A DNA stretch of 64,000 nucleotides, from assembly GCF_001517835.1 (NCBI RefSeq), contig NZ_LOQG01000038.1, positions 1-64,000 of the forward strand, in the 5' to 3' direction. Position 1 is the stretch's first letter; every line of letters starts with the position of its first letter. The notes beneath the pieces were generated by a model, which had not been told where the DNA came from, did no database searches, and saw nothing but the letters and a program-made list of their open reading frames with translations. Source of the DNA: Caviibacter abscessus. GTDB lineage: Bacteria > Fusobacteriota > Fusobacteriia > Fusobacteriales > Leptotrichiaceae. The position numbers and the translations under genes are program-made. This document shows positions 20,263 to 55,680 of the stretch, piece by piece.

Positions 20263-20736
20263 ATGAATGCAAGTGTAGCGATTCAGATTTTGCCGAAAGT
20301 AATTGATGATGAAAAATTAATTATTATAGTTGATAAGGTGATAGAATATATTAAAAGTAAAGGACTAAAAACAGTTGTAGGACCTTTTGAAACAACGATA
20401 GAGGGTGATTACGATGAGCTTATGGAAATTATAAAACAATGTCAGATTATTGCTGTAAATTCTGGTGCTCCTTCTGTAATGTCTTATGTTAAAATAAATT
20501 ATAATCCATTAGGGAATATGTTTACTATAAGTCAAAAAATAGATAAATATAATAATTTAACAGAAGGCGTATTTTTAGACAACTACATTGACAAAACTGA
20601 TGAAACTTATATTCCTATACAATATAAATTAGATGATTCACCTGAATCAATAAATGATTTAAAGCCATATATACTTTTAACAGAATTTAAGTTAAAAAAA
20701 TATTTATTAGTGCTCTTTTTGAAGATAATATTTTAA
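20263..20736 (+). CDS. Thiamine-binding (MTH1187/YkoF-like) domain with foreign C-terminal tail
   Basis: Residues 1-96 match the small thiamine-binding family (PF01910 type): a ferredoxin-like fold with NASVAIQILPKV, VDKVIEYIKSKGLKTVVGPFETTIEGDYDELM, and a final ISQKIDKY. Members of this family normally end there. In this gene the frame runs on for about 60 residues that do not belong to the family. They read as the N-terminal end of the broken sigma-region-4-like protein that follows. The frame closes at 20736, just after an A7 run. AAAGGA precedes the ATG. It may still make a working thiamine-binding domain. Confidence 0.75.
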   Translation: MNASVAIQILPKVIDDEKLIIIVDKVIEYIKSKGLKTVVGPFETTIEGDYDELMEIIKQCQIIAVNSGAPSVMSYVKINYNPLGNMFTISQKIDKYNNLTEGVFLDNYIDKTDETYIPIQYKLDDSPESINDLKPYILLTEFKLKKYLLVLFLKIIF

Positions 20737-23214
20737 CAGTAAGTGATTTTGAACGTAATGAACAAAATATTAGAGAAAAATATAAATATTTTATTAAGGA
20801 TATTGAAAATTTAAAAAATATATCTTCTAATTTACATCTAATGTATTCTTTACCTAAAATTTTTACAAATAGAGAAGGTAAAGTTTGTTATGATATAAAA
20901 TTAGAATATTTAATATCATATAAATCTCTTTTGGATAAATTAGAAGAGGAAAATATAATATATTATTCTGATTTATATAATAAAAAAATAGATGAAAAAT
21001 TGCTTAGAAGTTTAAATAAGAAAATATATAATCTTATACCAATAGTTGAAAAACGATATAGGCAAGTTAAAATAAATTATAGTGAAAAGTTAAAATCTAT
21101 TTTAGAACATTTTGAGGCAATGCTAAGTGATGATGATCTGAAATCAATAGATAGCTATATTTATAATAATGAAGAATATAAAGAATATATATTTGATAAG
21201 TTAAAATTAGTTGTTGAAAAAAATATAATAGAAAAATTAAAACAAAATAATAAACCAGTCAAGATATATGAGTTATGGTCTAATTTACCTGAATATTTTA
21301 GAGATGAAAATTATTTGAAATTGATATTAAGTAAACATGAAAATTCAATATGTTCTTATACATTATCGGATAATACGAGTATATATATTACAAAAAATGA
21401 AAGTATTATAGAATATTTGAATAAAGCTCACAATTCTGATGATAAAAAAATAGAAATACTTAATCAAAGATTAAAAGGTGATACTTTAGATACTATAGGG
21501 AAAAATCAAAATGTAACTAGAGAAAGAGTAAGACAAATTTTAGTTAAAATTAAAGACTCATTTGATGAATCAAATAAATATTTTTTTGAAGATATATACT
21601 CGTATATTTTTACTGAATATGATACAAGTATTAATGATTTTTCTATTTCATTAGGAGATAATGGACATATAATTTATAATTATTTAGATTTTAGGTATGT
21701 AAAAGGGGAAAAAAGTATAAATCTTTTATTAGATGATGATAATGTTCCTGTAAAATTAAAAAAAGAGTTTGAAAAGGCTATTTACAAAGATTACATAAAA
21801 TTAGGAAAAGATAGGGTTTATAAGTAGAAATTCTATCTCTGAATACATTTTAAAAAATCTAGGTGTAGATGGTATAACTTTTGAAGAGTTTCAAGATCTG
21901 TATTTTGATGTTATATCAAAAGTAGAACCTGAGAAATTGACTACAGTTTTGACAACAATGGATAGAGGGTATCTAAATAGATTAGCAAATAGTGAAAAAA
22001 TATTATGGAATTTAGGTAAATTTAGATATTATAATATCAGTTCCAAAGATTTTACAGAATTGTTAGAAACATTAAATTTAGAACAATATCAAAACATTGA
22101 AATTTCTACATTGAAATTTATTGAAGATTTTCCTGAATTAATGAAAAAATATGATATTAGAGATCAATATGAACTTCATAATTTATTGAAAAAAATATAT
22201 AAGAGTGAAGCTATAGATTATGGAAGAATGCCAACAATAGAATTTGGAGTAGAAAATAGGCAAAAACAAGTTTTGGATTTATTATTTAATCTAGCACCAA
22301 TATCTAAAAAGGACTTAGCAAATGAATATAAAAAATTATATGGTATAGAAGTTAATACTTTTTTAGCTAATTATTTAGATGGATTTGAGACGTTTATGGA
22401 TGGAGATATTTTAAGAATAGATTTTAAATTCATGCCTATAGAAAAGCAAAAAAAGCTAATGGAAGTATTAAAAGAAGATTTTTACTTTATAGATGATATA
22501 AAGAAGATATATTATAATGAGTTTGGTATGCATGATAATGGTGAAATAAATACCAATACACTACAAGATATGGGTTTTAAAATATTTAGCAATTATGTTT
22601 TAAAAAATAATTATAGTTATGTGTCTGAATATATTAGAGATACTTTTGAAAAAGGTGAAGGTTTTTATTCGGGAAATTTATGTGTAAAATTTACATCTTC
22701 ATTTCACACTGAACTTATAAAAGCTAAAGAGAATTATGATGTTATAGAATATAGTCATAGAAAGTATGTAAATAAAAATTGGTTAAATAATAATAATATA
22801 AGTAAAGAAATGATATTAGAATATGTTGAAAAGACATTAAATTCTCTTAAAGATGAATTTTTTACAATACAATGGTTAATAAAAAATGGGATTGATTATA
22901 GATTTGATAAAAATTTACCAGATTATTTTTATTCATCTATATTAGTGGAGCAAAAAGAGCATATTTCATATAAACAATCAACAACAGTGTTATTAATGTA
23001 TAAAGGAAAAGGTATTAAAAATGTATCTTTTTCAGATTTTATAATTAGCTATTGTTTAAATAATAATTTTGACAGTATTAGTTTAAATACAATATTAATG
23101 GTATTAAGAAATGAATATGGAATTAGTATAGAAAAGCATAGACTAATTGAGGATATTAAAGAAAGTAATTTTTTAAATTATGATTCAATAGAAAATATTA
23201 TAATTTTAAAATAA
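20548..23214 (+). pseudogene. Large sigma-70-region-4-like DNA-binding protein, broken by two frame changes
   Basis: One reading of about 890 residues is split over two frames. Part A (to about 20700) continues the thiamine-binding gene. Part B (about 20700-21815) is shifted by -1 at an A7 run (20694-20700). Part C (about 21817-23214) is shifted back by +1 near GGG at 21814-21816, where KDR joins FISRNSISEYI. Part B holds a sigma-70 region 4 helix-turn-helix (LDTIGKNQNVTRERVRQIL, coded near 21485-21545). Part C has winged-helix-like repeats such as SKKDLANEYKKLYGIEV and LNTILMVLRNEYGISI. The rest is helical and I do not recognise it. Such large sigma-like proteins occur in accessory regions; function unknown. 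Sequencing errors at the homopolymers could mimic the breaks. Confidence 0.7.
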
Positions 23215-48519: not shown

Positions 48520-48545
48520 AAATAGATTAAAAATAAGTGGTGAAT

Positions 48546-49529
48546 ATGAAAAAACTAACGATTAAAGATATTGCAAATTTGGCAGGAGTATCATTTAAGA
48601 CGGTATCTAGGGTTTTAAATAAAGAACAAAATGTAAAAAAAGAAACTAGAGAAAAAATTGAAAAAATATTATTAGAAACTAATTTTAGTATAAATTATAA
48701 CGCAAAAAGACTTTCAATAAGTAGAACAAAACAAATTGGACTTGTAACAAATACGGTTTTGGACTATGAACTTAATAAAAATTATATAATTATGAATTAT
48801 ATTGTAAATTATGCAAGAAAACGAGGTTATACTATTTTAGTTAATAGAAGTTTTAAAGAACTTGTGAAAAATAATTTTGATAAAATTGATTCAGGTTTTT
48901 ATGAAGGTTTGATATTTTTAAATCCTAAAAATAGTGATGAAGTTGAAAAAGCAGTTCAAAGTAATTTACCTGTTGTTATTTCAGGGATTAGTGAAAAATA
49001 TATATATGTAGGAACAGATCAATATGAAAGTGCATATATAGCAACTGAAACATTAATTAGGAAAGGGTGCAAGGATATTTGCATACTTTTAGGAGATAGT
49101 AACACCAAAACTACAAATGAAAAATATAGAGGATATAAACAGGTAATAGATAAATTTAAAATGAAAGAAAATGTGTATTATAATTACTCAAGTAGTGAGG
49201 AAGTTGAGAAATTTATAATATCAAAATATAAAGACAAAAAATTACCTGACGGTCTTGTTATAAATTCTGATTACGCAGCACTTGGAGCTATAAGGGCTAT
49301 TAATAAACTTGGTATTAAATGCCCAGAAAAACTTAAAATAATAAGTTTTGGAAACACTTTTATATGTAATGAAGTATATCCTAGTTTAAGTTCCATGAAA
49401 CAAAAATTTGATATAATAGCAAAAGAATTAGTTGATAAAATAATTTATATGATAGAAAATGAGGGTAAAAAAGCACAAAGTTATAAAATACCCGCAGAAC
49501 TTGTTGAAAGGGATACTATTTTAAAATAG
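48546..49529 (+). CDS. LacI-family transcriptional regulator
   Basis: A 327-residue regulator. Residues 1-50 are the DNA-binding region: LTIKDIANLAGVSFKTVSRVLNKEQNVKKETREKI, with the hinge YNAKRLSISRTKQIGLV. The rest is a periplasmic-binding-protein-like sensor with VVISGISEKYIYVGTDQYESAYIATETLI and INSDYAALGAIRAINKLG. ATG 48546 is preferred to a GTG three codons upstream that overlaps the ribosome site. The ATPase of an ABC-2 exporter starts 15 bases after its stop, so they form one operon. The effector is unknown. Confidence 0.92.
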   Translation: MKKLTIKDIANLAGVSFKTVSRVLNKEQNVKKETREKIEKILLETNFSINYNAKRLSISRTKQIGLVTNTVLDYELNKNYIIMNYIVNYARKRGYTILVNRSFKELVKNNFDKIDSGFYEGLIFLNPKNSDEVEKAVQSNLPVVISGISEKYIYVGTDQYESAYIATETLIRKGCKDICILLGDSNTKTTNEKYRGYKQVIDKFKMKENVYYNYSSSEEVEKFIISKYKDKKLPDGLVINSDYAALGAIRAINKLGIKCPEKLKIISFGNTFICNEVYPSLSSMKQKFDIIAKELVDKIIYMIENEGKKAQSYKIPAELVERDTILK

Positions 49530-49544
49530 ATAAGGAAGAAGAGT

Positions 49545-50420
49545 ATGAATAAGATTTGTATTGAAAATTTGGATTATCAATATAAAAAATTTCAAAAAAA
49601 GGCTGTTGATAACATTTGTTTAGAGATAAAGCAAGGAGTGTATGGGTTAGTAGGAGCTAACGGAGCAGGGAAAACTACTTTATTAAAAATAATAGCTACG
49701 CTTTTGCCATTTAATAACGGAAAGATAGTTATAGGCGATTTAGATATGAAAGTTGATTTGAGTAAAATTAGATCGCAAATAGGTTATGTTCCTCAAAAAT
49801 TTGAATTTTTTGAAATGCTTACAGTTTATGAATTTTTGTATTATATAGGTTTAAATAAAAAAATATCTTCAGAAGATATTAACCAGTCAATAGAATATTG
49901 GCTTGAAAAATTTAATCTTATAAATAAGAAAAATGAAAAAATAAAAACATTATCTGGTGGAATGAAACAAAGAATTGCAATTATTCAGGCAATATTAGGA
50001 GATCCTAAAATTTTAATTTTTGATGAACCAACGGTTGGATTAGATCCAATGGAACGACTTAGATTTAAAAATATTATCAATGAAATAAAAAAGGATAGAA
50101 TAATTATTATTTCAACACATATTATATCAGATGTTTCAGCTCTTTGCGATATGATTGGAGTTATGAGTAGTGGAAAAATTTTATATTCAGGGACAGTTGA
50201 TAACCTTATTGATGAGGCAAAAGGAAAGATTTCTACTATAACAATTAAAGAAAATGATAACATTGCGGAAGAGATTATGAATCAAGTTATATCTATCAAA
50301 CGTTTTAAGGATAATATATACATAAAAATAATTGATACAAAAGGAATTGGAAGTAGTTGTGTACCTGACTTGGAAGATGCATATTTTCTGAAAATAAAAG
50401 AAAAGGAGTTAAACATATGA
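49545..50420 (+). CDS. ABC-2 type exporter ATPase in the LacI operon
   Basis: A 291-residue ATPase. Walker A GANGAGKTT, the Q-loop YVPQKFEFFEMLTVYEFLYYIG, signature LSGGMKQR, Walker B ILIFDEPTVGLDP and the switch histidine STHIISDV are all present. A C-terminal arm of about 80 residues follows, as in CcmA-type exporters of bacitracin-resistance style. GGAAGAAGAG precedes the ATG. The large permease gene begins 4 bases before its stop (ATGA overlap). Confidence 0.9.
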   Translation: MNKICIENLDYQYKKFQKKAVDNICLEIKQGVYGLVGANGAGKTTLLKIIATLLPFNNGKIVIGDLDMKVDLSKIRSQIGYVPQKFEFFEMLTVYEFLYYIGLNKKISSEDINQSIEYWLEKFNLINKKNEKIKTLSGGMKQRIAIIQAILGDPKILIFDEPTVGLDPMERLRFKNIINEIKKDRIIIISTHIISDVSALCDMIGVMSSGKILYSGTVDNLIDEAKGKISTITIKENDNIAEEIMNQVISIKRFKDNIYIKIIDTKGIGSSCVPDLEDAYFLKIKEKELNI

Positions 50421-51838
50421 CTTTAGAAGTCAAATACATTGTTAAAATTCAAATTCAAGAAATTTTTAAGATGAAGAAAATTTATTTAGCGATGTATGCG
50501 TTTATTATCTTTTTTTCTAGTATCCTCTATATACAGGATTTTAGTATGAAAATAACTGCAAATTTGGTAGTTTTTATTTGGATAAGTTTAATGAGTTTAA
50601 TTGGTTTAAAGGCATTTGTAGAAAATGAAAGAGAAAGCTTGTTTATTATTAATAAAACATCACTTTTTTCTAAATATGTCAAATTAATTTTAGCTCAAAT
50701 TATTTTAAATTTACCTTTACTTCTATGTATAGGTTTTCAGTTATTTTTTTTGAGACAAGATATTTTAAAAACTTTAGAATTGACAATTATTTTTTATATG
50801 TTTGCTATAATGTTTGGATTTTTATTAGGGAATACAGTTTCAAAAACAAGTGGGATAATTATTTTAGTACTTGTTTTTTTATATAATTTTTTCTTGGTCA
50901 ATCCATATAAAATGACAGAGTATACTTATTTACTTGGTGTTAATGAATTTTTATTTAATTTAGATAACTTAAATAAGATTAATATATTAAAAATGTTATT
51001 TATTATTTTATTGGGTATTTTTACGGTGTTTATCAACAGAAAATATTTATTTTCAAAAAATGGTAAACTCATTTCTTTTACTTTTCTGATAATGGGATTT
51101 ATAATTTTAGAGTGTGTTCAATATAGATTTTATATATTTGGGGAAAATACAGAACTAAAAACCACGTATATAAAAGATAGGAAAATTATTTATACTAATG
51201 TGGATATTTTAGAATATTCTAAGGGTGTGGAAATTTTACAAAAAGTACAAAACTCTTATATGAATCTTGGTGGAAGTACAGTTAAATGCTATATGATAAA
51301 AAAAGAATTTTTATCTTCTTTAGAATGGAAATTTATAAAACAATCCGTAAGTTATGAATTAGAAAAAGAGTGTTTAAAGATTAATATATATAGTTTAGCA
51401 AATTTAAATTTTTATGATCCAGCTATAGTGTATTCAATGGCAGGTGATATTGCAGGAGTATGGAAACAATCTATACCTAATTATGTTGGTGGAAATAGGT
51501 ATTTTCGTCATATTATAGATGGAAGTGAAGCAGTATTTATATCAAAAACTATAAAAACAACTTTTGGTGAAAATAGCAGGATTTCAAAATATGCACAGAA
51601 TGAATTAGATGATACATATAAATCACCAATAACAAAAAATAATTATGTAAAAAGAATAGGTATTTTAGTAGCTGATAAATATGAAGACCAATTAGCATAT
51701 TTAATTAAAATACTTAATGAAAATAAATTAGATAACAATGAAGAATTTATAAAAATATTAAAAGATAAGTTTTTTGATATTTATCAAGATCCATATATTT
51801 ATGATTTTTTGAAAAGAAATATAAAGGGAGTGCAATAA
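50417..51838 (+). CDS. Large ABC exporter permease with soluble C-terminal domain
   Basis: A 473-residue protein. Residues 1-245 hold about seven hydrophobic segments. Residues 250-470 are soluble and of unknown fold. The soluble part contains YSMAGDIAGVWKQSIPNYVGGNR and then IIDGSEAVFISKTI. That spacing recalls the HExxH-W and later EG-A positions of M1-like peptidase domains found fused to ABC-2 permeases, but no HExxH motif is present, so an active protease is not supported. It overlaps the ATPase gene and is followed 1 base later by a second permease. Confidence 0.7.
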   Translation: MTLEVKYIVKIQIQEIFKMKKIYLAMYAFIIFFSSILYIQDFSMKITANLVVFIWISLMSLIGLKAFVENERESLFIINKTSLFSKYVKLILAQIILNLPLLLCIGFQLFFLRQDILKTLELTIIFYMFAIMFGFLLGNTVSKTSGIIILVLVFLYNFFLVNPYKMTEYTYLLGVNEFLFNLDNLNKINILKMLFIILLGIFTVFINRKYLFSKNGKLISFTFLIMGFIILECVQYRFYIFGENTELKTTYIKDRKIIYTNVDILEYSKGVEILQKVQNSYMNLGGSTVKCYMIKKEFLSSLEWKFIKQSVSYELEKECLKINIYSLANLNFYDPAIVYSMAGDIAGVWKQSIPNYVGGNRYFRHIIDGSEAVFISKTIKTTFGENSRISKYAQNELDDTYKSPITKNNYVKRIGILVADKYEDQLAYLIKILNENKLDNNEEFIKILKDKFFDIYQDPYIYDFLKRNIKGVQ

Positions 51839-51839
51839 A

Positions 51840-52508
51840 ATGAGTTATATGAATCTGCTAATAAGAAATAGAAAATTTATATTTCTTATTTTTATCTCTT
51901 ATTTTTTGTTGATTTTTATGGATATGAAAACTGTTGGCGTGATACATACACATGAAAATATGCTTTTTCGCTTATTAAATCATCAGGTTTTTTTAGTATT
52001 TTTGATTCCTTTTCAAATACTTAGTGTATTAAACCAAAAGTTTATAAGCATACAAAAAAATTATCTTGTATTATATACAAACGATGAAGTTTCAAATATA
52101 AAAAAGACATTTTACTGCATTATTGCAATTGAAATACTTTTTTACATTTTAGGACAAGTTTTTTTTCAATTTGTTAATTACATATTTTTAGGACAGGTAT
52201 ATATGCAATATCTTAATTTTAATTTTTTAACTATTATTGAGATAGTAACTGTGAATTATATTATTATATTTTTTCTACTGATTTTCAAAAAAGATTTGTT
52301 TTCATATATTACATATTACATTTTGATATTACTATTGTTAATTTATAATAATACATATATAACAATACCTGTAACTGTAAAATTTATTAAATTATTGAAT
52401 GATGCTCCTTTAAAACTTCTTTTATCAAGAATAGTTTGGGTAATTGTTTCATTTGTTGGTTTTTGTATATCACTTTATAAATACAGTATTTCTTTTTATG
52501 ATAATTAA
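51840..52508 (+). CDS. Second membrane subunit of the LacI-linked exporter
   Basis: A 222-residue membrane protein with about six hydrophobic segments and few charges. It contains GVIHTHENMLFRLLNHQVFLVFLIPFQIL near residue 35, followed by helices to the end. I do not recognise the family. It begins 1 base after the larger permease stop and has GGGAG before its ATG, so the three genes probably make one transporter. A terminator follows. Confidence 0.7.
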   Translation: MSYMNLLIRNRKFIFLIFISYFLLIFMDMKTVGVIHTHENMLFRLLNHQVFLVFLIPFQILSVLNQKFISIQKNYLVLYTNDEVSNIKKTFYCIIAIEILFYILGQVFFQFVNYIFLGQVYMQYLNFNFLTIIEIVTVNYIIIFFLLIFKKDLFSYITYYILILLLLIYNNTYITIPVTVKFIKLLNDAPLKLLLSRIVWVIVSFVGFCISLYKYSISFYDN

Positions 52509-52526
52509 AGTATTTTAGTTATAGAG

Positions 52527-52566
52527 AAAAAAATCGTTATAAGCTTAAGCAAATAACGATTTTTTT
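52527..52566. terminator. Bidirectional terminator between two exporter operons
   Basis: AAAAAAATCGTTAT (52527-52540) is perfectly complementary to ATAACGATTTTTTT (52553-52566) around a 12-base loop. A and T runs on the two sides let it serve both convergent operons. Confidence 0.9.
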
Positions 52567-52583
52567 ATTAATTATAGTATATT

Positions 52584-53381
52584 TTACATTTCACTTCTAC
52601 TAAACTTAACTTGCTTTATTAATAATAGATTAATCAAAAATACTATTAATGTCATAAGTACTACGATTATAAAATCCTTTGAAAAATTAGTAAATAACAT
52701 TGCTTCTCTTAAACCGTTTAGCTGATATGTTAATGGATTTAAATGTGCTACAATCTTAATATATTTATCAACATCACTTAAAATGTAATAAGCAGGAGCA
52801 CTAAAATATACAGGTAATAGTAATAAGTGCGTTATTAAATCTCTTGTCTTATAACTTTGAACCTTTAGTGCTATAAGTATTCCAACATTTACCCAAAATA
52901 AAGTTATTATTATAGACATTATGTATCCGATTAATAGATTAATAAATCCTATATTAGTAGTTAATTTAGTTATAATTAAAAGTATTGGAATTTGTACATT
53001 TATTCCAACAATTGCGTAAAATGATTTACTTAAACTATATGACAATATTCCTATTCCATTTGCTAATTTAAGATGAAGCAGTCCCCATTTATTATCTATA
53101 ACAGTTCTATATATTATGTTTGTTATTTCTCCTACACAAATTATACCTATAAGACCTGTTAGAGAGTAAAGTTCATAATTTAAGTCTCTTCCTTTATAAT
53201 TAAAAACTCCAATAGTCTTTGCTAAGCCTTTAACAAAGAAAATATAATATACTATTGGGAATAGAATATTGGTGTATAAAATGGAACTATTTTGTATTAA
53301 AGCTTTATATTCAAACCACAAACCATTTTTTAGTCCTGTAAGAAATGATTGTTTATTCTTTATATTTGAAAAATTATTCAT
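52584..53381 (-). CDS. ABC-2 type exporter permease
   Basis: A 265-residue protein with six expected helices. The pattern includes NGLWFEYKALIQNSSILYTNILFPIVYYIFFVKGL at the N-terminus, VIDNKWGLLHLKLANGIGILSYSLSKSF in the cytoplasmic loop, and AHLNPLTYQLNGLREAML near residue 220, a usual ABC-2 permease motif (NPLxYxxxxLR). It overlaps the ATPase gene by 8 bases. The substrate is unknown; drugs, peptides or lipids are possible. Confidence 0.85.
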   Translation of the reverse strand: MNNFSNIKNKQSFLTGLKNGLWFEYKALIQNSSILYTNILFPIVYYIFFVKGLAKTIGVFNYKGRDLNYELYSLTGLIGIICVGEITNIIYRTVIDNKWGLLHLKLANGIGILSYSLSKSFYAIVGINVQIPILLIITKLTTNIGFINLLIGYIMSIIITLFWVNVGILIALKVQSYKTRDLITHLLLLPVYFSAPAYYILSDVDKYIKIVAHLNPLTYQLNGLREAMLFTNFSKDFIIVVLMTLIVFLINLLLIKQVKFSRSEM

Positions 53382-54054
53382 AACTCAACTCCTTTAATAT
53401 CTTATCTCTTAATGAGTCATCTTTAATAAATTCGTTAATAGGTCCGTCATATTTTATATTCCCGTCGTAAATGTATATTATTCTGTCACAAAATTTTTGT
53501 ATAAGCTCTAAGTCATGTGAAGAAACTAAAACAATTTTATTTTTAGCAACTTCATCTTTAAAGTATTGCATAACCTTTTCACTTGAGTATACATCTAAAC
53601 CTGTTGTAGGTTCGTCTAAAATGTATAATTTAGGTTTTTTCATTATTGCTCTTGATATTTGTACTCTTTGAAGTTGTCCTCCTGATAAGTCTTCTATAGA
53701 ATTATTTAAATATGGTTTTAATTCTAGAAGTTCAGTGATTTTATTAAATAAATTATCATCTCTTTTTGGTAAAAAGATTTCTTCCATTCTTATATTACTT
53801 TCAACATTTAAATACCAGTCTATAACCTGTTTTTGAGAGATAAATCCAATTTCATTATATTTATAATCAATGGATATTTCACCTTCATTATAATCTTTAA
53901 TTCCCATTAAACTATTTAAAAATGTTGATTTACCAGCCCCATTATGACCTAAGATAGCAACAAATTCACCTTCGTTAATACTTAAAGTTACGTTTTTTAT
54001 TCCTTTTTTGTTACTGTATATTGATGTCATATTAATTAAATTTATTTTTTTCAT
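53374..54054 (-). CDS. ABC-2 type exporter ATPase with upstream leader
   Basis: A 226-residue ATPase. It has Walker A GHNGAGKST, the Q-loop GFISQKQVIDWYLNVESNI, signature LSGGQLQR, Walker B YILDEPTTGLD and VSSHDLEL. GQ-type signature and short length fit simple exporters. AGGAGA precedes the ATG. Its mRNA begins about 110 bases upstream and contains a short leader ORF and a hairpin, which suggests regulated expression, for instance by a translation-affecting ligand. Confidence 0.9.
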   Translation of the reverse strand: MKKINLINMTSIYSNKKGIKNVTLSINEGEFVAILGHNGAGKSTFLNSLMGIKDYNEGEISIDYKYNEIGFISQKQVIDWYLNVESNIRMEEIFLPKRDDNLFNKITELLELKPYLNNSIEDLSGGQLQRVQISRAIMKKPKLYILDEPTTGLDVYSSEKVMQYFKDEVAKNKIVLVSSHDLELIQKFCDRIIYIYDGNIKYDGPINEFIKDDSLRDKILKELSYE

Positions 54055-54089
54055 TATAATATCTCCTAATGTATTAAACTTTGGCTGTA

Positions 54090-54113
54090 AAACTAATTGC
54101 TTAGAATTAGTTT
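54090..54113 (-). promoter_or_regulatory. Leader hairpin before the exporter ATPase
   Basis: AAACTAATT and AATTAGTTT form a perfect 9-bp stem with a 6-base loop. In the minus-strand mRNA it comes 8 bases after the stop of the six-residue leader ORF and 35 bases before the ATPase start. No T-run follows in that direction, so it is not a plain terminator; it could take part in attenuation or protect the message. Confidence 0.55.
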
Positions 54114-54121
54114 CTTTGTTT

Positions 54122-54142
54122 TTAATTGTATAGTAGTAGCAT
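54122..54142 (-). CDS. Six-residue leader ORF (MLLLYN)
   Basis: On the minus strand ATG CTA CTA CTA TAC AAT TAA follows a very strong ribosome site, AGGGAGG (54157-54151), with an ideal 8-base gap. Three consecutive CTA leucine codons stand out in a genome that mostly uses TTA. The ORF lies between a promoter and the exporter ATPase gene, followed by a hairpin. This is the layout of regulatory leader peptides, in which ribosome stalling controls the next gene. Function is inferred from layout only. Confidence 0.55.
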   Translation of the reverse strand: MLLLYN

Positions 54143-54164
54143 TTTTCAGACCTCCCTTAGTTTA

Positions 54165-54192
54165 AATATAATGATATTTTATCATTTGTCAA
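54165..54192 (-). promoter_or_regulatory. Promoter and operator of the leader-exporter operon
   Basis: On the minus strand TTGACA (54192-54187) and TATATT (54170-54165) are 16 bases apart. AATGATA (54170-54176) and TATCATT (54180-54186) form a perfect 7-bp inverted repeat with a 3-base centre that fills the spacer between the boxes. A repressor bound there would block the promoter. Confidence 0.65.
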
Positions 54193-54202
54193 TAATGTTT
54201 TT

Positions 54203-54242
54203 TTGTACAAGCTATTGACATTATCAAAAACCGAGCTATACT
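54203..54242 (+). promoter_or_regulatory. Promoter of the hexuronide operon
   Basis: TTGACA (54215-54220) and TATACT (54237-54242) are 16 bases apart, 37 bases before the uxaC ATG. TTGTACAA (54203-54210), a perfect palindrome, lies 4 bases upstream of the -35 and could be part of an operator; GntR-type hexuronate regulators use similar dyads, but that link is a guess. Confidence 0.65.
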
Positions 54243-54279
54243 ACAAATGACAACGCAAACATTTTGAATTGGAGGAACA

Positions 54280-55680
54280 ATGAAATTTATAAACCCTAAC
54301 TTTATGCTACATAATGACACGGCAAAGAAGTTATATAATGATTATGCAAAAGATATGCTTATATATGATTATCATTGTCATTTAAGTCCGGAAGAAATAG
54401 CAAAAGATAAACCTTTTGATAATATCACACAAATATGGCTATATGGTGATCACTATAAATGGAGAGCTATGCGTGCAAATGGTGTATATGAAAAATTTGT
54501 TACAGGAAATAGCAGTGATTTTGAAAAATTTGAACATTGGGCAAAAACTTTAGATAATTGTATAGCAAATCCTCTTTATCACTGGAGTGCTTTAGAACTT
54601 AAAAGATATTTTGATATTGATGAGATATTAAGTTTTGATAACTATAAAGATATATGGGAAAGAGCAAATAAAGTTATTATAGATAAAAAATATTCTCCTA
54701 AAAAGATGATAACTATGTCTAATGTAGCTGTTGTATGTACTACAGATAGTCCTGTTGATGATCTTAAATGGCATAAGATAATAAAAGAGGATAAAGAATT
54801 TAAGACTAGAGTTGTTCCAGGATTTAGACCTGATGAAGTATTATCTATAGGAACAAAGAAATTTTATGATTTTATACCAAAACTTGAAAAAATTGTAGAT
54901 TTTAAAATAGATACATATGAAAAAATGCTAGATGCAATTAAACTTAGAATAAAATATTTTGATGAAAATGATGGATATATATGTGATCACGGTATACTTA
55001 AATTGCCATATATAAAATCATCAAGAGATGAAGTATACAGCATTTTTGAAAAAGCATTAAATAAACAAGTTTTAACAAATGAAGAAATTGAAAAATATTT
55101 AACAACTTTACTTATTGACCTTGCAAAAGAATACAAAAAGTATGATTGGACTATGCAAATCCATTTTGGAGCTATAAGAAATAATAATGAAAAATATTTT
55201 GAAACTTTAGGTCCTGATACAGGATTTGACTCTATAGCTGATACTTCAGATGTTGCATATTGTCTTAATAATTTATTAAATGATATGAGTAAAAATGATG
55301 GATTACCTAAAATGATAATATATAATTTAGATCCTACATTAAATAATGTAATTGCTTGTAATATTGCTAATTTTCAAATAAATTCTGGTAAATTACAATT
55401 TGGTGCGGGCTGGTGGTTCAATGATACGAAAGAAGGGATGATAAGACAAATGAAAACATTAGCAGATCAGGGTTTACTTGCTAAATTTGTTGGGATGCTT
55501 ACAGATTCAAGAAGTTTTGTATCATATACAAGGCATGAATACTTTAGAAGAATATTGTGTCAATATATTGGGGAATTAGTAGAGCTTGGTGAAATACCAA
55601 ATGATGAAAAAATATTAAAAAAATTAATACAAAATATTTGCTATAACAATGCAAATACGTATTTTAAAAAGGAGAGATAA
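54280..55680 (+). CDS. uxaC: Glucuronate isomerase
   Basis: Converts D-glucuronate to D-fructuronate (and galacturonate to tagaturonate). The 466-residue product has the family features INPNFMLHNDTAKKLYNDYAKDMLIYDYHCHLSPEEIA at the start with metal-binding HCH, YHWSALELKRYF near residue 100 and FGAGWWFNDTKEGM near 383, and the closing SFVSYTRHEYFRRILC. GGAGG precedes the ATG. It is the first gene of a seven-gene operon; uxuA follows 3 bases later. Confidence 0.96.
   Translation: MKFINPNFMLHNDTAKKLYNDYAKDMLIYDYHCHLSPEEIAKDKPFDNITQIWLYGDHYKWRAMRANGVYEKFVTGNSSDFEKFEHWAKTLDNCIANPLYHWSALELKRYFDIDEILSFDNYKDIWERANKVIIDKKYSPKKMITMSNVAVVCTTDSPVDDLKWHKIIKEDKEFKTRVVPGFRPDEVLSIGTKKFYDFIPKLEKIVDFKIDTYEKMLDAIKLRIKYFDENDGYICDHGILKLPYIKSSRDEVYSIFEKALNKQVLTNEEIEKYLTTLLIDLAKEYKKYDWTMQIHFGAIRNNNEKYFETLGPDTGFDSIADTSDVAYCLNNLLNDMSKNDGLPKMIIYNLDPTLNNVIACNIANFQINSGKLQFGAGWWFNDTKEGMIRQMKTLADQGLLAKFVGMLTDSRSFVSYTRHEYFRRILCQYIGELVELGEIPNDEKILKKLIQNICYNNANTYFKKER

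Follow-up and report, generated by a model that had tools for sequence, protein, structure and literature searches.

A strong Shine-Dalgarno sequence and a six-codon open reading frame upstream of an ABC-2 exporter in Caviibacter abscessus: a possible 5' stabiliser or sensing leader

Leader ORFs and 5' stabilisers in other bacteria

MsrDL, the macrolide-responsive leader of msrD in streptococci, consists of six codons ending in UAA, and its residues 3 and 4 (Leu and Ile) are essential (PMC10314930). A hairpin lies between this leader and the ATP-binding-cassette gene, which encodes an ABC-F ribosome factor, and the effect of MsrDL is exerted by way of a Rho-independent terminator (-7.9 kcal/mol). 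In Bacillus subtilis, BmrB is a leader controlling the ABC multidrug exporter BmrCD (PMC4191407); bmrB comprises about 160 nt with terminator and antiterminator structures. Of the very short upstream open reading frames (uORFs) that sense ribosome inhibitors, toiL manages with eight codons (PMC12121999); it base-pairs with the ribosome site of the gene that follows. A role in mRNA stability is described for Bacilli without RNase E, where occluding the 5' end, or a strong Shine-Dalgarno (SD) sequence that need not be followed by an initiation codon, makes the whole ORF or mRNA more stable (reviewed in PMC3997798), as with the STAB-SD of cryIIIA and the ermC leader.

The leader found in C. abscessus, encoding MLLLYN, resembles MsrDL in its six codons followed by UAA, in the hairpin between leader and ATP-binding-cassette gene and in the hydrophobic residues 3 and 4. 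It differs in that the downstream gene encodes an exporter component and in that the terminator is missing. With BmrB it shares the position of a leader ORF in front of an ABC exporter, but neither terminator nor antiterminator structures were seen. Like toiL it is an ORF of few codons upstream of a gene; unlike toiL, no masking of the downstream ribosome site is predicted. In contrast to the stabilisers of Bacilli, its SD is followed by an ATG and six codons, and the host belongs to a different phylum. Because of the parallels to MsrDL, BmrB and toiL, a sensing function has to be considered. In the literature searched, no minimal upstream ORF at an exporter of Fusobacteriota was described.

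Promoter, ribosome site and leader ORF

The window, i.e. the whole 64-kb stretch of DNA analysed here, is part of the 1.22-Mb genome of C. abscessus and has a G+C content of 26.5%. This genome is the smallest of the Leptotrichiaceae, and the published set includes two genomes of this candidate species (PMC5093955). The following features are relevant:

54165-54192, minus strand: promoter TTGACA-16-TATATT, 11 of 12 consensus matches; predicted transcript start near 54158
54170-54186, minus strand: perfect 7-bp inverted repeat AATGATA-AAA-TATCATT, possible operator (direct reading)
54151-54157, minus strand: strong SD AGGGAGG (-12.6 kcal/mol), at the predicted 5' end of the mRNA
54122-54142, minus strand: predicted leader ORF MLLLYN, six codons, ATG CTA CTA CTA TAC AAT TAA (direct reading)
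54090-54113, minus strand: perfect 9-bp hairpin AAACTAATT-CTAAGC-AATTAGTTT, 6-nt loop (-6.8 kcal/mol)
54063-54067, minus strand: AGGAG, the ATPase gene's own ribosome site (direct reading)
53374-54054, minus strand: ABC transporter ATPase, 226 aa (PF00005, 1.8e-29); ATG at 54054
52584-53381, minus strand: ABC-2 type permease, 265 aa (PF01061, 5.4e-12; match to the drrB model below cut-off)
49545-52508, plus strand, and 52584-54054, minus strand: two ABC exporter cassettes between lacI and uxaC

An earlier note on this DNA had described a TTGACA/TATATT promoter on the minus strand, and direct reading confirmed it, with TTGACA at 54192-54187 and TATATT at 54170-54165 separated by a 16-nt spacer. 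The inverted repeat that had been taken for an operator occupies the whole spacer and one base of the -10 hexamer. The repeat itself is perfect, but its significance did not hold up: a 7-bp inverted repeat arose in 124 of 2000 dinucleotide shuffles of the 28-nt promoter, and a second exact copy was found nowhere in the genome. A regulon based on this operator was therefore rejected; five of the six copies with one mismatch lie inside genes (judged by eye).

The layout of the leader was likewise confirmed, with AGGGAGG, a spacing of 8 nt and the six codons given above. Pairing of this SD with the 16S tail is bettered by only 3 of the 55 gene starts in the window, so the statement that one of the strongest ribosome sites of the window serves six codons was correct. 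The AGGGAGG is separate from the AGGAG of the ATPase gene and would lie at about +2 to +8; its position at the 5' end of the mRNA rests on the predicted start. When the intergenic region was shuffled with its dinucleotides preserved, an SD-ATG combination of this strength appeared in 2 of 2000 cases. When the window and 400 kb of other stretches from the same genome were combined (464 kb), four short ORFs (≤ 40 codons before a gene) had an SD of -9 kcal/mol or better, and the sole one with an SD stronger than that of MLLLYN was the product of a poly-G tract. In the noncoding DNA upstream of genes (16.9 kb), strong SD motifs distant from any gene start occurred at three places, the leader among them.

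Between the leader ORF and the ATPase gene, the perfect 9-bp hairpin could also be verified. It has one G-C pair and no T run, and is followed by TACAGCC; a perfect hairpin as long as this arose in the leader in 19 of 2000 shuffles. On the basis of these counts, the start of the ORF is significant, the hairpin marginal and the operator not significant. Since the shuffle tests were chosen after the features had been seen, neither hairpin nor operator should be relied on.

The peptide together with its SD was found at this locus alone among 98 Fusobacteriota genomes, and not once in viral contigs. Near matches to the leader DNA within the family were few, and all were devoid of a comparable SD and peptide. 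In three checked upstream regions of distant relatives from Firmicutes plasmids (37-41% identity), no leader ORF was located directly before the ATPase gene. A GTG-initiated ORF of seven codons at -145 of the Enterococcus faecium locus was set aside, since it sits within a gene on the opposite strand. The leader is thus, as far as these genomes indicate, a single instance in one genome. We regard it as an authentic and unusual 5' element in front of an acquired exporter, and the strong SD with its six-codon ORF looks like a real element of 5' control or mRNA protection.

Possible functions of the leader

We slightly favour a ribosome-occupied 5' stabiliser, in which the SD and the six-codon ORF protect the exporter mRNA, over a sensing leader of the MsrDL or BmrB type, with a relic in third place; even the favoured explanation is put forward tentatively. 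The ABC-2 export cassette (54192 to 52584) would be transcribed from its own promoter, yielding an mRNA that opens with the strong SD and the short ORF. Ribosomes would load at its extreme 5' end and make, or begin to make, MLLLYN. Their occupancy might keep RNase J from degrading the mRNA in the 5'-to-3' direction, a protection which slowed ribosomes could strengthen, and the exporter would be translated from its own ribosome site. We infer here where the transcript starts, that the leader is translated and stabilises the mRNA, and, if a signal is involved, the response to it. As regards the host, RNase J (590 bits) and RNase Y (649 bits) are present, both over the cut-off, and RNase E/G was not detected in the genome, which corresponds to the setting of the STAB-SD in Bacilli. 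Stabilisation by an SD is documented for Bacilli and not for Fusobacteriota; if it operates here, ribosome roadblocks may protect mRNA outside Bacilli as well. In favour of this role, the SD-ATG combination exceeds chance and strong SDs apart from gene starts are rare upstream of genes. Moreover, the leader lacks a terminator and a ribosome site relieved by stalling, which a switch would require. A stabiliser explains the SD, the most striking feature of the leader, without recourse to the hairpin. Since it would work without an ATG, an ORF or a run of three CTA codons, all of these would be incidental and are left unexplained.

The earlier note had proposed that translation of MLLLYN senses leucine-tRNA or a ribosome-targeting compound and thereby controls the exporter. 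Part of its basis stands, namely the strong, non-random start, the six codons, the good promoter and the ABC exporter pair. The sensing step is unsupported, because no intrinsic terminator was found in the leader or between leader and ATPase gene, no attenuator or other Rfam family matched, the folding of the 141-nt leader did not surpass that of its shuffles (z = +0.34), and no ribosome site is relieved by a stall. The comparison with stalling control as in erm failed on this last point. When a ribosome was simulated on the start or the Leu codons, the computed chance of finding the ATPase SD wholly unpaired remained close to 0.028; with the ribosome at the leader's stop codon this SD became less accessible, the opposite of a release as at erm. 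An SD masked at rest and freed by a stall was thus absent from the computed, weak folds. Since these folds are weak and A+T-rich, the simulations only argue against a switch.

A sensing leader might work as follows: a compound that targets ribosomes would arrest them on MLLLYN, either at its start or, as in MsrDL, at UAA, and exporter expression would rise by way of RNA structure, Rho or protection of the mRNA. The leader resembles those of attenuators in being a short ORF that precedes a gene and is served by a separate ribosome site; it lacks the intrinsic terminator of the MsrDL and BmrB type. The non-random ORF with its strong SD in front of an exporter, the leucines at the positions essential in MsrDL and the precedents of BmrB and toiL speak for such sensing; against it stand the missing terminator, the missing mask on the exporter's ribosome site, a fold not exceeding shuffles and the relatives without such a leader. 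The likeness to MsrDL depends on a few residues. We consider sensing of this kind rather unlikely. The more specific assumption, namely that MLLLYN acts as a minimal stalling peptide of the MsrDL kind and controls an ABC-2 exporter of Fusobacteriota by changing the ribosome protection of the 5' end, without terminator or masked ribosome site, is improbable. If the leader is translated and regulatory, minimal upstream ORFs would extend to an exporter in Fusobacteriota, and the leader would hint at the substrate of the latter.

Control by leucine is the least probable explanation and seems very improbable to us. Scarcity of charged tRNA-Leu for CTA would slow the ribosome at codons 2-4, the hairpin would stay closed and the exporter's SD would be freer than with ribosomes at the stop codon. 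The run of three consecutive CTA codons was borne out; CTA is a rare choice here, at 7.5% of the Leu codons. The computed accessibility of the ATPase SD also has the correct sign, being 3.4-fold higher for a ribosome at the Leu codons than for one at the stop. This ratio was, however, reached in 17 of 300 shuffles, and absolute accessibility is low in every ribosome state; a leucine-codon switch was therefore rejected. Neither the terminator of an attenuator nor a suitable gene function was found, an ABC-2 exporter being unexpected in a leucine regulon.

Finally, the promoter, SD and start codon might stem from another gene that disappeared during assembly of the cassette, leaving an ORF without a present role. 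With the leader known from a single genome, such a relic is conceivable. The cassette that holds the exporter is an insertion between lacI and uxaC, an ATG behind an SD quickly reaches a stop in such A+T-rich DNA, and MLLLYN is unlike any known gene start. A strong SD that is no longer used should, on the other hand, degenerate, and upstream of genes here hardly any other such site occurs. We judge a relic to be unlikely, a shade more so than sensing of a ribosome-targeting compound.

Origin of the cassette and other loci of the genome

The best plasmid relatives of ATPase and permease are one gene pair of E. faecium (41% and 37% identity). No ortholog of the exporter was present in the 98 Fusobacteriota genomes, two of which contain permeases with only 24-28% identity. 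A search of 84,980 genomes for the ATPase, which was seeded by exact peptides and could detect only close relatives, yielded no near relative and four distant matches (27-32% identity). The permease had no match in phages or viral contigs, nor the ATPase in viral contigs.

In the related genomes L092, L093 and L094, a lacI-type regulator is located directly before uxaC; the regulator of C. abscessus is 59% and 47% identical to counterparts in related genomes. In C. abscessus the two genes are separated by 4.7 kb, filled by the two ABC export cassettes (window positions 48537-54280). Judged from this gene order, the exporter is an acquired cassette inserted between lacI and uxaC. Alignment of the uxaC promoter region holds from about 54215 onward, which puts the probable edge of the insert within 54193-54214. 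By this reading, the leader would have arrived together with the exporter cassette. The uxaC promoter region (54215-54279, plus strand) contains the blocks TTGACA, CGAG..TA and ATGACAACG, which are common to the related genomes and possibly include the operator for the lacI-type regulator next to it.

Two further loci were noticed. Upstream of a gene for a SufC-like ABC ATPase (around the match at 1501-1515 of L042; G000:C11, about 22990-23070), a nine-codon ORF (MVFYHTTFI) is preceded by AAGGAG. It overlaps a GTATG...CATAC hairpin and terminates in ATGA at the start of the SufC-like gene; the ribosome site may be coupled or bridged by the hairpin. At the other locus (L084:480-2693; G000:C27, about 20480-22693), a tract of 11 G is situated between the TTGACT and TATAAT boxes in front of the gene for a YadA-like trimeric autotransporter that has an OmpA domain. 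This is the only site in the genome with a run of at least eight G close before TATAAT, and it is built like a phase-variable promoter of the slipped-strand type.
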